From a virus, in the IMG/VR virus record IMGVR_UViG_3300022751_000023, positions 1 through 40,979 of that record: a DNA stretch of 40,979 nt; one strand, given 5' to 3'. The translations under genes and the position numbers were made by a program. Position 1 is the first letter of the stretch. Every line of letters starts with the position of its first letter. This document shows positions 12,690 through 40,979 of this stretch, piece by piece. The notes under the pieces are model-generated. The model did not search any database and had not been told where the DNA came from. It saw nothing but the letters and a program-made list of their open reading frames with translations.

Positions 12690-12702
12690 CTACCAAATAA
12701 TG

Positions 12703-12788
12703 TGAACAAGTCAGGACTCGAACCTGAAAATATTGTGATCAGCAACCCTACTCAGCGTAGGAGCGTCTACCAATTCCGCCACTTGTTC
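12703..12788 (-). tRNA. tRNA-like gene, Leu-type class II, anomalous anticodon arm
   Basis: Leftward cloverleaf: acceptor GAACAAG/CTTGTTC, Leu-style D-arm GCGGAATTGGTAGACGC, T-arm TCAGG TTCGAGT CCTGA and a long variable arm with TTG/CAA. The anticodon arm is abnormal. Its best pairing, CCTAC GCTGA GTAGG, leaves a 5-base loop; forcing a 7-base loop gives CGCTGAG, with G in place of U33 and a CTG triplet. The amino acid identity is therefore uncertain. CCA is not encoded. It sits alone between two rightward tail genes. Confidence 0.7.
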
Positions 12789-33775: not shown

Positions 33776-33783
33776 TATATTTA
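33776..33783 (+). promoter_or_regulatory. Promoter of leader B, -7 element
   Basis: TATATTTA, one mismatch from TAnnTTTG. The -33 region (GTTAC near 33749) is weak. Transcription would begin about 33789. Confidence 0.5.
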
Positions 33784-33788
33784 CACTA

Positions 33789-33877
33789 CAAGTTTAGTAG
33801 CGCACACTACAATAATAACTTAAAAACATTGGGGCTAGATTGGTTGTGCGACCTTTCGAACCCCATTTTTATTTAAC
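33789..33877 (+). promoter_or_regulatory. Leader B: pseudoknotted attenuator-like RNA
   Basis: TGGGG (33830-33834) pairs with CCCCA (33861-33865), and further in GGT (33842-33844) pairs with ACC (33851-33853), exposing the 6-base loop TGTGCG. That loop is perfectly complementary to CGCACA at 33801-33806. The 23-base linker contains CTTAAAAACATT, also seen in leader C. The stem is followed by TTTTTATTT and the ATG at 33878. Confidence 0.65.
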
Positions 33878-34210
33878 ATGGAAGCAATAACCATTGAAGA
33901 AATTAAATCATTGTTATTTGAATATAACATTGAAACTAAAGAAAGTCCAAAAACAGATGATTTTGATCGAAAAATTGAGTTTAGAATTAACGAAATTGAT
34001 TATTCAATTATCTGGTTTGTTAATCATTCCACATTGCAAATAGGTAATTCAAATAGACTCGCTCAAATACCTTTTAGATTTATGTATTTCGATAATACAT
34101 TTCCATTAGTTGGCGGAAATAGGAGCATAGCATTTTGTTATGATAAATTTAAAAAAGAATTTTTCTCAGATAGAGAATATCCTTTTGCTTCATTCAGGAT
34201 ACCATTCTAA
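33878..34210 (+). CDS. Hypothetical protein after leader B (110 aa)
   Basis: Alpha/beta, with SIIWFVNHSTLQIGNSNR and a Phe-rich C-terminus. First gene of the recombination transcription unit (RecT and exonuclease follow). No family recognised. Confidence 0.55.
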   Translation: MEAITIEEIKSLLFEYNIETKESPKTDDFDRKIEFRINEIDYSIIWFVNHSTLQIGNSNRLAQIPFRFMYFDNTFPLVGGNRSIAFCYDKFKKEFFSDREYPFASFRIPF

Positions 34211-37407: not shown

Positions 37408-37541
37408 CTAAAGCACTTATTGAACGTGAATACTACGTTGCATTGGTTTATAGAAAACTTGGAATGTACGAACAGTTAAAACTACGTTGGAAACAAATCG
37501 GTTACAATCCAATTAATTTGCAACTTGATTTGTTTTCTTAG
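37404..37541 (+). CDS. Small hypothetical protein (45 aa)
   Basis: Basic/helical, rich in Tyr and Leu. Its 3' end overlaps the promoter of leader C. No family recognised. Confidence 0.5.
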   Translation: MTKALIEREYYVALVYRKLGMYEQLKLRWKQIGYNPINLQLDLFS

Positions 37542-37559
37542 TTTTAATTCGTAAATTAG
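37529..37559 (+). promoter_or_regulatory. Promoter of leader C
   Basis: TTTG (37529-37532), 19 bases, TAAATTAG (37552-37559). Near-consensus; it begins inside the previous gene. Confidence 0.65.
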
Positions 37560-37565
37560 TAATTC

Positions 37566-37667
37566 AAATAATAAACGGAGTGGTAGCCGGAATTAAAAAC
37601 ATTTTCACCCTTTGTTGGGTCGGGCGTACTACCACCGCTTGGCTCGACAAAGGGTTTTTTATTTAAA
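37566..37667 (+). promoter_or_regulatory. Leader C: pseudoknotted attenuator-like RNA
   Basis: Best-formed member of the family. A 20-bp stem (37607-37626 with 37636-37655, five G-U) is followed by TTTTTTATTT. Its 9-base loop contains CTACCAC (37629-37635), perfectly complementary to GTGGTAG at 37580-37586. The 20-base linker holds ATTAAAAACATT. The ATG of the ParB-like gene (37668) comes three bases after the tract. Confidence 0.75.
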
Positions 37668-38399
37668 ATGAGTATCAAAAAATCAAATTACGAAGTATTG
37701 TGTACTTCTGATTATTCTGTTTTCAAAACAATGAAAGGAAACAGAAATGTAAATCCAATGAATCTTAAAAGAATTTCTGAAAGCATGAAGAAAAATTGCT
37801 TATTCAGTCCTATTCTTGTAAATGATAAAATGGAAATAATAGATGGTCAACACCGTTTATTAGCTCTTAAAGAACAAAAGAAAGAAGTCTACTTTATTAT
37901 TGTTCCAAACTATTCAGTTAACGAAGTTCATATATTAAACACAAACTCTTCGAACTGGAAAAAAGAAGATTACTTGCTTGGGTATGTTGATATGGGATTA
38001 AGACCATATATCCAATTTAAACAGTTATGGGATGAATTTTCAAATTTTGGTATTAAGACTTGCCTTGCAATTATATCTTATCATAACTCAGATAAGTATA
38101 ATCCTCAAAAATCATTTGAGAGCGGTAATCTAACACCATTTGATCTTCAATCTTCAATAAATACAGCTAAGAAAATATCAGACTTTAAAAAATTTTATGA
38201 GGGCTATACTAAGCCTAGTTTTGCTATTGCTATTATGCAATGCTTAAAGAATGATTTTTATGAACACTCGGTTATGATGGCAAAATTATCTAGGTTACCA
38301 AAGCAAATTACCGATCAGACGAATGCTAAAAATTATTTATTTCAGTTAGAAGAAATTTATAACTACAAAAACAGGAAAAAGGTAAACTTTAGGTTTTAA
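37668..38399 (+). CDS. ParB/Srx-like nuclease-domain protein
   Basis: 243 residues. The N-terminal 100 residues have the ParB N-terminal fold pattern, with ILVNDKMEIIDGQHRLLALKEQ (DGQHR box). No HTH or ParA partner is seen. Phage ParB-like proteins can be DNA nucleases or regulators. First gene of the replication transcription unit led by leader C. Confidence 0.7.
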   Translation: MSIKKSNYEVLCTSDYSVFKTMKGNRNVNPMNLKRISESMKKNCLFSPILVNDKMEIIDGQHRLLALKEQKKEVYFIIVPNYSVNEVHILNTNSSNWKKEDYLLGYVDMGLRPYIQFKQLWDEFSNFGIKTCLAIISYHNSDKYNPQKSFESGNLTPFDLQSSINTAKKISDFKKFYEGYTKPSFAIAIMQCLKNDFYEHSVMMAKLSRLPKQITDQTNAKNYLFQLEEIYNYKNRKKVNFRF

Positions 38400-38402
38400 A
38401 CC

Positions 38403-39299
38403 ATGGCCAGACCAGAAAGAAATACAGTCGATTACTTTCCGTATTTATGTGATGAAGGTGAAAAGATGTACTACATTGATGAGCGTTACGGTAATGATGG
38501 CTTTGCAACGTTTATTAAAATTCTTACTCATCTTGCACGTACTGACTATCATTATTTAGATCTAAGCAAGAAAACGACACAAATGTTTTTAAGTGCTAAA
38601 TGCAAAGTTTCTACTGAAATTCTTAACTCGATTATTACTGATTTATCTGAATTAGGAAAATTCAATAATCAACTTTGGAGCGAAAATAAAATAATTTGGT
38701 GCCAGGATTTTATAGATAGTATTCAAGATGCTTACAAAAAACGAAACAACCAATGTATAAGTTTTGATGGTTTACTAATCCTTTTAGATAGTTTAGGGGT
38801 ACGTAAACTAGGTAAACTGCCGACTACTACCTCCGTAAAACCACAAAGTAAAGTAGAGTATAGTATAGAAGAGGAAACTAAAGAAGAAGATAATAAAGGA
38901 GAGTTAAAAATTTCGGCTGCGCCTACCCTCTCAATTGAAAAATTTAAAGTAAGGGCTTCTATAAGCTTTGAAAAAAATGAATGCACTTTCGGTACACCAT
39001 TTAAAAAATTGTGGCTAGAACTTATCCAGACAAAAAAATGGAAAACAAAGGAACAATCAGCAATAAATGCAAGCCTTAAAAAACTTTTAAAATACGATGA
39101 GATATTCGCTAGCATCTTAGTCGAAAACGCAATTGCTGGAGGTTATCAGGGCGTTGAATTTACAGATACAATTAATCATTACGAAAAATATTTAAAGCAA
39201 AAAAATGGAACAGGGACTACAAAAGAAGAATCAAGAAATGCTATGGCGGACTTCGCCAGATCAATTATTATCAATCATCAAACCCAAAGCGGCTCTTGA
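38403..39299 (+). CDS. DUF4373-type replication protein
   Basis: 298 residues. RPERNTVDYFPYLCDEGEKM and YGNDGFATFIKIL are the DUF4373 (Lin1244/Lin1753-like) N-terminal signature; a charged linker follows and the C-terminal 100 residues carry a second helical domain with YEKYLKQKNG-like helices. Likely binds the phage origin or acts as a DnaD-like initiator. The last 95 bases are also read in another frame by the next gene. Confidence 0.7.
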   Translation: MARPERNTVDYFPYLCDEGEKMYYIDERYGNDGFATFIKILTHLARTDYHYLDLSKKTTQMFLSAKCKVSTEILNSIITDLSELGKFNNQLWSENKIIWCQDFIDSIQDAYKKRNNQCISFDGLLILLDSLGVRKLGKLPTTTSVKPQSKVEYSIEEETKEEDNKGELKISAAPTLSIEKFKVRASISFEKNECTFGTPFKKLWLELIQTKKWKTKEQSAINASLKKLLKYDEIFASILVENAIAGGYQGVEFTDTINHYEKYLKQKNGTGTTKEESRNAMADFARSIIINHQTQSGS

Positions 39300-40017: not shown

Positions 40018-40776
40018 ATGATATTAAGACGCTTAGGGAATAAATCAAAGTTAGCAGGTAGAATACAAGAAGAATTCCCTCCGCATAAAATATATGTTGA
40101 ACCATTTTTTGGTGCTGGAGGAATGTTTTTCAATAAACCTTTAGCGACTAAAAATTTTCTAAATGATTTAGATAGCGATGTTTACAATCTTTGGAACATT
40201 TTTATGTACAAAAAAGATGAGTTAATTTACTTTTTGGACAATACTCCATATCATGAAGATGTTTGGAATAATTGGAAAGCTAATGAAGAATTAACAGATA
40301 TCAGAAAAGCTGCGAGATTTTTATATCTTTCAAATTTTGGATATCTAGGTGCGCCAAAATCGTTACACATGACGGATAGAAACTCTAAACAGGTTTTAAT
40401 TGAGAATATGAATATTTTGAAATACAAAGGTCATTTGTGTTTCTCCAATAAGGATTTCAGAAAGTTTATAAAATCAATATCATTAGAAGAAGAAAAATCA
40501 TCATCGGTTTTTGTTTATTGTGATCCTCCTTATTTGGGTACCAATGATAATTATTCTTATTCTTTTAAGGAAGCAGATAGTTTGGACCTTTTTAATTTAC
40601 TTGTTTCCACGGGCTATAATTTTGCGATATCTGAATTTAATAATCCTGTTATTATTCGATTAGCCGAAGAAAGAAATTTAAACATTATTAACTTAGGTGA
40701 AAGAAGTAATATAAAAAATAGAAGAACAGAAATATTGATTACAAACTATAGAAACACCCAACAAAAACTATTCTAA
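40018..40776 (+). CDS. dam: DNA adenine-N6 methyltransferase, D12 class
   Basis: 252 residues. LGNKSKL and FFGAGG (30-35) form the S-adenosylmethionine site, and YCDPPY (167-172) is the catalytic motif of Dam-type D12 methylases. It methylates adenine in phage DNA, probably GATC-type, and with Dcm may defend against host restriction. The next small gene begins one base after its stop. Confidence 0.85.
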   Translation: MILRRLGNKSKLAGRIQEEFPPHKIYVEPFFGAGGMFFNKPLATKNFLNDLDSDVYNLWNIFMYKKDELIYFLDNTPYHEDVWNNWKANEELTDIRKAARFLYLSNFGYLGAPKSLHMTDRNSKQVLIENMNILKYKGHLCFSNKDFRKFIKSISLEEEKSSSVFVYCDPPYLGTNDNYSYSFKEADSLDLFNLLVSTGYNFAISEFNNPVIIRLAEERNLNIINLGERSNIKNRRTEILITNYRNTQQKLF

Positions 40777-40911
40777 ATGCACACCTACAAGATAAAGTAC
40801 CTAACAGTTACCTCGATGAGTATTGAGGAATATAGGCTGAAAAAGTTGAACAAGTTCAAAGAATTTATTATATTTGAACAACAGAGTGGTCGCTGTGTAA
40901 AGAAACTTTAA
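40777..40911 (+). CDS. Small hypothetical protein across the terminal repeat (44 aa)
   Basis: Starts directly after the methylase stop. Its second half (from 40840) is the terminal repeat and carries the promoter and first leader stem within the coding sequence. Basic, with EEYRLKKLNKFKEFIIFEQQ. In a circular molecule it is the last gene before leader A. Confidence 0.45.
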   Translation: MHTYKIKYLTVTSMSIEEYRLKKLNKFKEFIIFEQQSGRCVKKL

Positions 40912-40979
40912 ACAATCCTCGGCAGAGTAGAGACGACCACCTCGAAATGCTGGGGATTTTTATTTGGAAGAAATTTGGA
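40840..40979 (+). repeat. Right copy of the terminal direct repeat
   Basis: Matches 1-126 perfectly, lacks the two bases AT at 127-128, then matches 129-142. Contains a second copy of the promoter (TATATTTG at 40869-40876) and the whole of leader A. The missing AT turns the HTH start codon from ATG into an in-frame TTG. Confidence 0.9.

Follow-up and report, generated by a model that had tools for sequence, protein, structure and literature searches.

Three leaders in one viral genome raise the question of what a terminator-like hairpin, set a few nucleotides before a start codon, does when its loop is complementary to a segment just upstream. The genome is IMG/VR record IMGVR_UViG_3300022751_000023 (viral DNA, the entire virus record, positions 1-40,979), and the window is this whole stretch of 40,979 nucleotides. 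A sequence-only reading had proposed one design in three places, leader A (43-126), leader B (33789-33877), and leader C (37529-37667), and all three are present there, on the + strand and each closely 5′ of an ATG. The elements are, in order, a hairpin (H1), an A-rich linker, a terminator hairpin (H2), a T-tract, and the ATG, with the H1 loop kissing the H2 loop. The complement had been described as a 5′ segment; the pairing is exact (7 nt in A, 6 nt in B, and 7 nt in C, with at least 6 nt taken as the family criterion), and the segment turns out to be the loop of the 5′-terminal hairpin H1, so that its pairing with the H2 loop is a kissing loop. The genes beside the leaders encode a DNA methylase, RecT, an exonuclease, a ParB-like protein, and a replication initiator, with tailed-phage genes elsewhere, and this part of the window is likely an early region. 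The features are as follows.

7-37, + strand: leader A promoter, read from sequence, of the Bacteroidota -33/-7 type (TTG 7-9, 20 nt, TATATTTG 30-37)
42-57, + strand: leader A H1, ACAG-AGTGGTCG-CTGT; 8-nt loop of A plus the kissing word GTGGTCG (47-53)
76-118, + strand: leader A H2, lower stem ATCCTCGGCA/TGCTGGGGAT, internal loop GAGTA/GAAA, apical stem GAG/CTC
95-101, + strand: kissing word of the leader A H2 loop, CGACCAC preceded by A
118-126, + strand: leader A T-tract, TTTTTATTT, abutted by the ATG at 127
127-315, + strand: 62-aa ORF behind leader A, starting MEEIWKAVLGY, NUMOD4 homing endonuclease-like (MEIWKDVIGYEG), then HTH
33776-33783, + strand: leader B promoter-like -7 box, TATATTTA
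33797-33810, + strand: leader B H1, GTAG-CGCACA-CTAC
33830-33865, + strand: leader B H2, TGGGG...CCCCA, apical stem GGT/ACC, loop TGTGCG at 33845-33850
33866-33874, + strand: leader B T-tract, TTTTTATTT; the ATG at 33878 opens a 110-aa ORF without assigned function
37576-37589, + strand: leader C H1, CGG-AGTGGTAG-CCG; loop of A plus the kissing word GTGGTAG (37580-37586)
37590-37606, + strand: leader C A-rich linker, holding TTAAAAACATT
37607-37655, + strand: leader C H2, 20 bp, -31.2 kcal/mol, loop with CTACCAC at 37629-37635
37655-37664, + strand: leader C T-tract, TTTTTTATTT; ATG at 37668
37668-38399, + strand: ParB-like gene behind leader C, followed by a Lin1244-type replication initiator (38403-39299)
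40883-40966, + strand: second copy of leader A, in the terminal repeat, without the AT of the ATG

H1 was read from sequence; in B and C it is present in the computed fold, and in A it is an alternative to the minimum-energy H1. In all three leaders, the stem is followed directly by a T-run, the signature of an intrinsic terminator. The difference between GTGGTCG/CGACCAC in A and GTGGTAG/CTACCAC in C is a true compensatory one, as had been claimed, and linker words like AAAACATT are found again in many family members. The promoter assigned to each leader is canonical in A only; the B box lies farther upstream than usual, and C has no clear TAnnTTTG. Leader A matches covariance models R1 (E 4.9e-10) and R2 (E 5.9e-16) as a training member, leader C matches R2 (E 5.4e-9), also as a training member, and leader B is a divergent member that reaches only 23 bits with R1 (E 1.6). 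The 62-aa ORF behind leader A is possibly a nuclease remnant; its likeness to NUMOD4 is confined to the N-terminus, and a comparison with Pfam NUMOD4 gave no match.

The two ends of the window are direct repeats of each other (1-139 and 40841-40979), so that leader A reappears near the right end, and the genome is probably circular or terminally redundant. The repeat copies differ: AT is missing in the end copy, and the 62-aa ORF loses its start codon there. We treat this end copy without an intact ATG as an assembly or strain variant. The window also holds a tRNA-Gln (CTG) gene (12702-12788, - strand).

A scan of the window for a terminator with an upstream complement returned only A, B, C, and the repeat copy of A once the H1 stem had to contain at least two G-C pairs and both a promoter-like box and a nearby downstream ATG were required. 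Only two of 24 dinucleotide-shuffled strands gave a hit with H1 and a box, one each. A 6-nt complement near a terminator-like hairpin has no significance by itself, several being found per shuffled AT-rich strand, and a loose stem scan of the window is swamped by chance matches. Across related loci, descriptor scores of at least 14 were obtained 11 times in real and 0 times in shuffled sequence, the 11 including near-identical copies and one unconfirmed type.

The same architecture occurs with other loops in dozens of further phage contigs. Descriptor scans of phage loci, fetched via replication and recombination genes, reveal that the layout is kept and the loops differ, as in these three relatives.

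L041: H1 TCAGC-GTTGCAG-GCTGA, H2 loop CTGCAAC
L027: H1 GTAG-AGTAGTGG-CTAC, H2 loop CCACTAC
L052: H1 TCGG-AGTCGTCG-CCGA, H2 loop ACGACGAC

All 39 distinct loop pairs are self-complementary, and cross-pairs match in 1.1%. An alignment of 11 leaders was set by hand and so leans toward the structure, and two of its rows are shifted by one base within the kiss. In it, the named structure, kiss included, is 94% paired (54% in shuffles), the covariation score is 0.98 (0.21 in shuffles), and both sides have changed in 21 of 23 pairs; sliding the alignment drops the paired share to 32-49%. The rows of the first covariance model were hand-set and of equal length because MAFFT misaligned H2 in the raw leaders. 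Since hand-set rows may favour the structure, we put weight on new matches and on a blind pattern.

The first covariance model was built without the kiss, so that its search did not assume the pairing. Run against 96 sources, it gave new sites at E < 0.1 (L015:4744, L045, L049, L084, L031, and L028) that all have a 6-8 nt loop complement; its weaker matches are mixed, comprising members (L012, L052:9591, and L073) and plain terminators (L013 and L092). Among named phages outside the training set, a second covariance model matched FCV-1 (two sites), snusmum6-3 (three sites), Harreka_1, and phi10:1 at E < 0.01, every one with a 7-8 nt complement; the FCL-2 match, at E 0.09, has a complement as well. 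Matches in Arctus_1 (E 0.05) and at another snusmum6-3 site, 1729 (E 0.08), were rejected as plain terminators. The leader is present in the cultured phages FCV-1, FCL-2, snusmum6-3, Harreka_1, and phi10:1.

The blind pattern, AGTAGAG-N7-9-CTCGAA-N8-16-TTTTT, fixes only the H2 internal loop, the apical stem, and the T-run. It matched at least 120 viral stretches, and 81 sites were read among the matches listed. Among these, 75/81 have at least 7 nt of loop complement upstream (7-8 nt), compared with 6% (51/810) when a loop is set against the upstream DNA of other leaders; after de-duplication, the matches listed comprise 63 leaders with 26 different kissing words. The proposal of a structured-leader family kept by compensatory change is therefore strongly supported by tests that are independent of A, B, and C, and the comparisons show a fold that is under selection, with its terminator signature intact.

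Among the matches listed, the blind set also defines the anatomy of the leader. A -7 box, TAnnTTT[GA], is present in 59/75 leaders and in most of them stops 9-10 nt short of the kissing word, and this fixed distance places H1 at the predicted 5′ end of the RNA. In the same matches listed, the H1 stem measures 3-8 bp and mostly encloses an 8-nt loop; the linker has a length of 13-32 nt and an A+T content of 86%; a T-run of at least 5 (5-8) is present in 59/63 distinct leaders; and H2 ends before the T-tract, with the ATG mostly 5-23 nt past the stem. The kissing word has conserved ends (a G-T start and a G end), between which lie two purine positions and freely varying ones. A loop-E-like H2 internal loop, AGTA/GAA(A), is frequent (leader A, Harreka_1, FCV-1, L045, and L084), and an alternative form, GGATA/TTGAA, occurs in L049, L012, and L052; both were read from the letters, the former being the one on which selection of the blind set rested. 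L121 (G019:20200) has no H1 stem, and a plain 5′ segment, TCGCTACA, pairs with its terminator loop, TGTAGCGA, making it a possible minimal form of the leader. Separately, seven loci (L186, L194, L209, L214, L221, L223, and L231) carry the same kind of leader with a conserved stretch similar to AAAAAGTTGnTATTTATATATGTAG upstream in place of TAnnTTTG, which suggests another phage promoter class.

The suggestion that the leaders gate three early units proved too narrow, since in other phages it mostly stands in front of genes for homing endonucleases or for replication and can be swapped along with them. The 56 distinct proteins encoded downstream in the blind set, among the matches listed, include 17 of the NUMOD4/HNH_3 type (17 matches to each domain), 5 GIY-YIG, and further HNH types, together with the replication-like types DUF6291, DUF3987, Prim-Pol (primase), and HTH_36. 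In Rep-anchored loci, a set chosen by Rep, the leader stands directly before a Lin1244-type initiator or before a small ORF that precedes the initiator. Between leader and Rep gene, an ORF of 60-77 aa, often starting MANxK.F or similar, is present in L012, L016, L022, L026, L031, L037, L052, and L068; no function was found for it. Of the snusmum6-3 leaders, one is immediately followed by a NUMOD4 nuclease and one stands before a helicase. The alignment of FCV-1 with FCL-2 runs at 95% as far as FCV-1 position 40166 and resumes at 98% from 41126; the gap holds a leader (40354-40456) and a NUMOD4 nuclease, both absent from FCL-2. At the replication locus of the same pair, homology ends at the leader's promoter (35880), and leader and gene differ. 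Leader and gene were thus gained, lost, or exchanged together in that pair. Leaders within one genome usually have different loops (FCV-1, snusmum6-3, L052, and L015). An identical loop pair, GTCGTCG/CGACGAC, stands before NUMOD4-type nucleases in three phages (L052:7881, L015:4744, and L152:13649), consistent with joint spread of leader and nuclease.

Restraint of such nucleases has a precedent in T4, where RNA structure or internal terminators often limit the expression of homing endonucleases (PMC2988022). The leaders resemble I-TevI, segB, mobE, and segF in placing structure at the 5′ end of a homing-endonuclease gene, where it would restrain expression, and mobE and segF contain intrinsic terminators (PMC2988022). 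Unlike here, the T4 hairpins hide the ribosome binding site or sit inside the coding region, have no 5′-terminal hairpin kissing a terminator loop, and do not belong to one RNA family; many of the free-standing T4 nucleases also lack a promoter (PMC2988022).

The family looks phage-borne and is possibly biased to lytic phages, few named phages having been sampled. A covariance-model survey of 299 Flavobacteriaceae genomes gave no true match, its five weak ones being plain terminators without a complement; 14 candidates were scored per genome, so that rare members could be missed. The integrase-bearing phages Arctus_1 and GDF21, the only two sampled, have no true leader. Rfam 15, including c4 antisense RNA and Flavo-1, gave no match above the gathering cut-off in the window and only weak chance matches around leader C.

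Our preferred reading, tentative and with not quite an even chance of being right, is that each leader acts as an attenuator, a conditional transcription terminator that is portable and whose read-through is set by the kissing complex. RNA polymerase would start just upstream of H1, and H1, the A-rich linker, and H2 would fold in the nascent RNA. H2 and the U-tract would form an intrinsic terminator approximately 80 nt from the start and a few nucleotides before the AUG. The H1 loop would pair with the H2 loop of the same molecule, and the kissing complex, perhaps together with the linker and the internal loop, would change the share of polymerases that read through, which would delay or limit the downstream genes. 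Since the replication genes behind the leader have to be expressed, we infer that the kiss more likely favours read-through; it could instead stabilise H2. The sequences themselves show the fold, the kiss, the U-tract, the promoter-H1 spacing, the gene linkage, and the joint gain or loss in one phage pair. We favour an attenuator because H1 would be superfluous in an ordinary terminator and because the leader is followed by replication genes; the plain terminators among the weak model matches have no complement. Against this reading, an alternative antiterminator hairpin was not identified, and L121 pairs its loop without an H1 stem. Riboswitch-type attenuators, such as the purine riboswitch, also have kissing loops near a terminator. 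Unlike in those, one partner of the kiss here is the loop of the terminator itself, no conserved ligand pocket is seen, and the downstream genes share no metabolite.

The earlier suggestion of an RNA switch or antitermination element is plausible, and it had been compared with the put RNAs of phage HK022. PutL RNA is ~70 nt, lies just downstream of a promoter, and has two stem-loops, with the first paired base at +3 and a triplex in stem I; binding to RNAP through the β′ zinc-binding domain lets put suppress terminators that lie downstream, and the two put RNAs of HK022 are related in sequence (PMC9378689). The comparison stands for size, promoter proximity, and the two hairpins: the leaders, too, are phage RNAs of ~70-80 nt with two stem-loops just downstream of an early promoter, before early genes, and may act as RNA only. 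It fails for the terminator U-tract and the kiss, neither a U-tract after stem II nor a kissing loop being described for put. A put-like mode of action, in which RNA polymerase in elongation would be bound by the folded H1-linker-H2 RNA and so resist pauses and terminators, the leader's own and later ones, is less likely but a serious rival. In its favour, the leaders have an A-rich linker between hairpins in a putL-like position; against it, they often head short nuclease cassettes, not long operons.

That the loops match within a leader and rarely across leaders, that leaders of one genome usually differ in their loops, and that replication genes are headed by leaders would also suit an RNA acting in trans, in which the terminated ~80-nt leader kisses nascent leaders with matching loops and provides copy-number feedback or exclusion. 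The P4 CI and P1 c4 antisense RNAs (Rfam c4, RF01695), phage leaders with internal complementarity and premature termination, are models for such feedback or exclusion. Unlike these, the kissing leaders have no c4 or other Rfam match, are not confined to one immunity operon, and were not found in the two integrase-bearing phages sampled or, as true matches, in the 299 host genomes, which makes lysogenic immunity, also considered and downgraded, unlikely. Homing nucleases, moreover, need no copy control, and we regard action in trans as rather improbable, though still a serious rival.

A role in translation or mRNA stability, in which the 5′ end is shielded by H1 and the kiss, ribosomes load on the U-rich, unstructured stretch before the AUG, and no real termination takes place, would account for the position of H1 at the predicted 5′ end and for an unsequestered start codon just past the hairpin; the strong stem followed by 5-8 T, canonical for an intrinsic terminator and kept almost throughout among the matches listed, makes it decidedly improbable. 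Chance complementarity in AT-rich leaders, where 6-nt complements beside terminator-like hairpins are common, is excluded by the blind sites and by the self-matching loop pairs.

Returning to the conditional terminator, its wider form is possible, if doubtful: a widespread RNA-only cassette of Bacteroidota phages in which a 5′-terminal hairpin would kiss the loop of an intrinsic terminator and so decide polymerase passage for transcripts from that promoter, serving as a swappable head of replication modules and homing endonucleases, with loops diversified against cross-talk between leaders in one cell. A literature search within open-licence papers returned no description of such leaders, and the RNA family is apparently undescribed within the sources searched. 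Many phages of Flavobacterium-like bacteria carry the leader, which has the look of a widespread, portable RNA switch not described before; its presence in cultured phages makes it directly testable. If true, the switch would represent a large and hitherto unrecorded RNA family among the phages of an abundant bacterial phylum, in which little is known about how phage genes are regulated; it would tie a regulated terminator to the spread of homing endonucleases and the onset of phage replication, and would offer a compact, sequence-programmable kissing-loop terminator.
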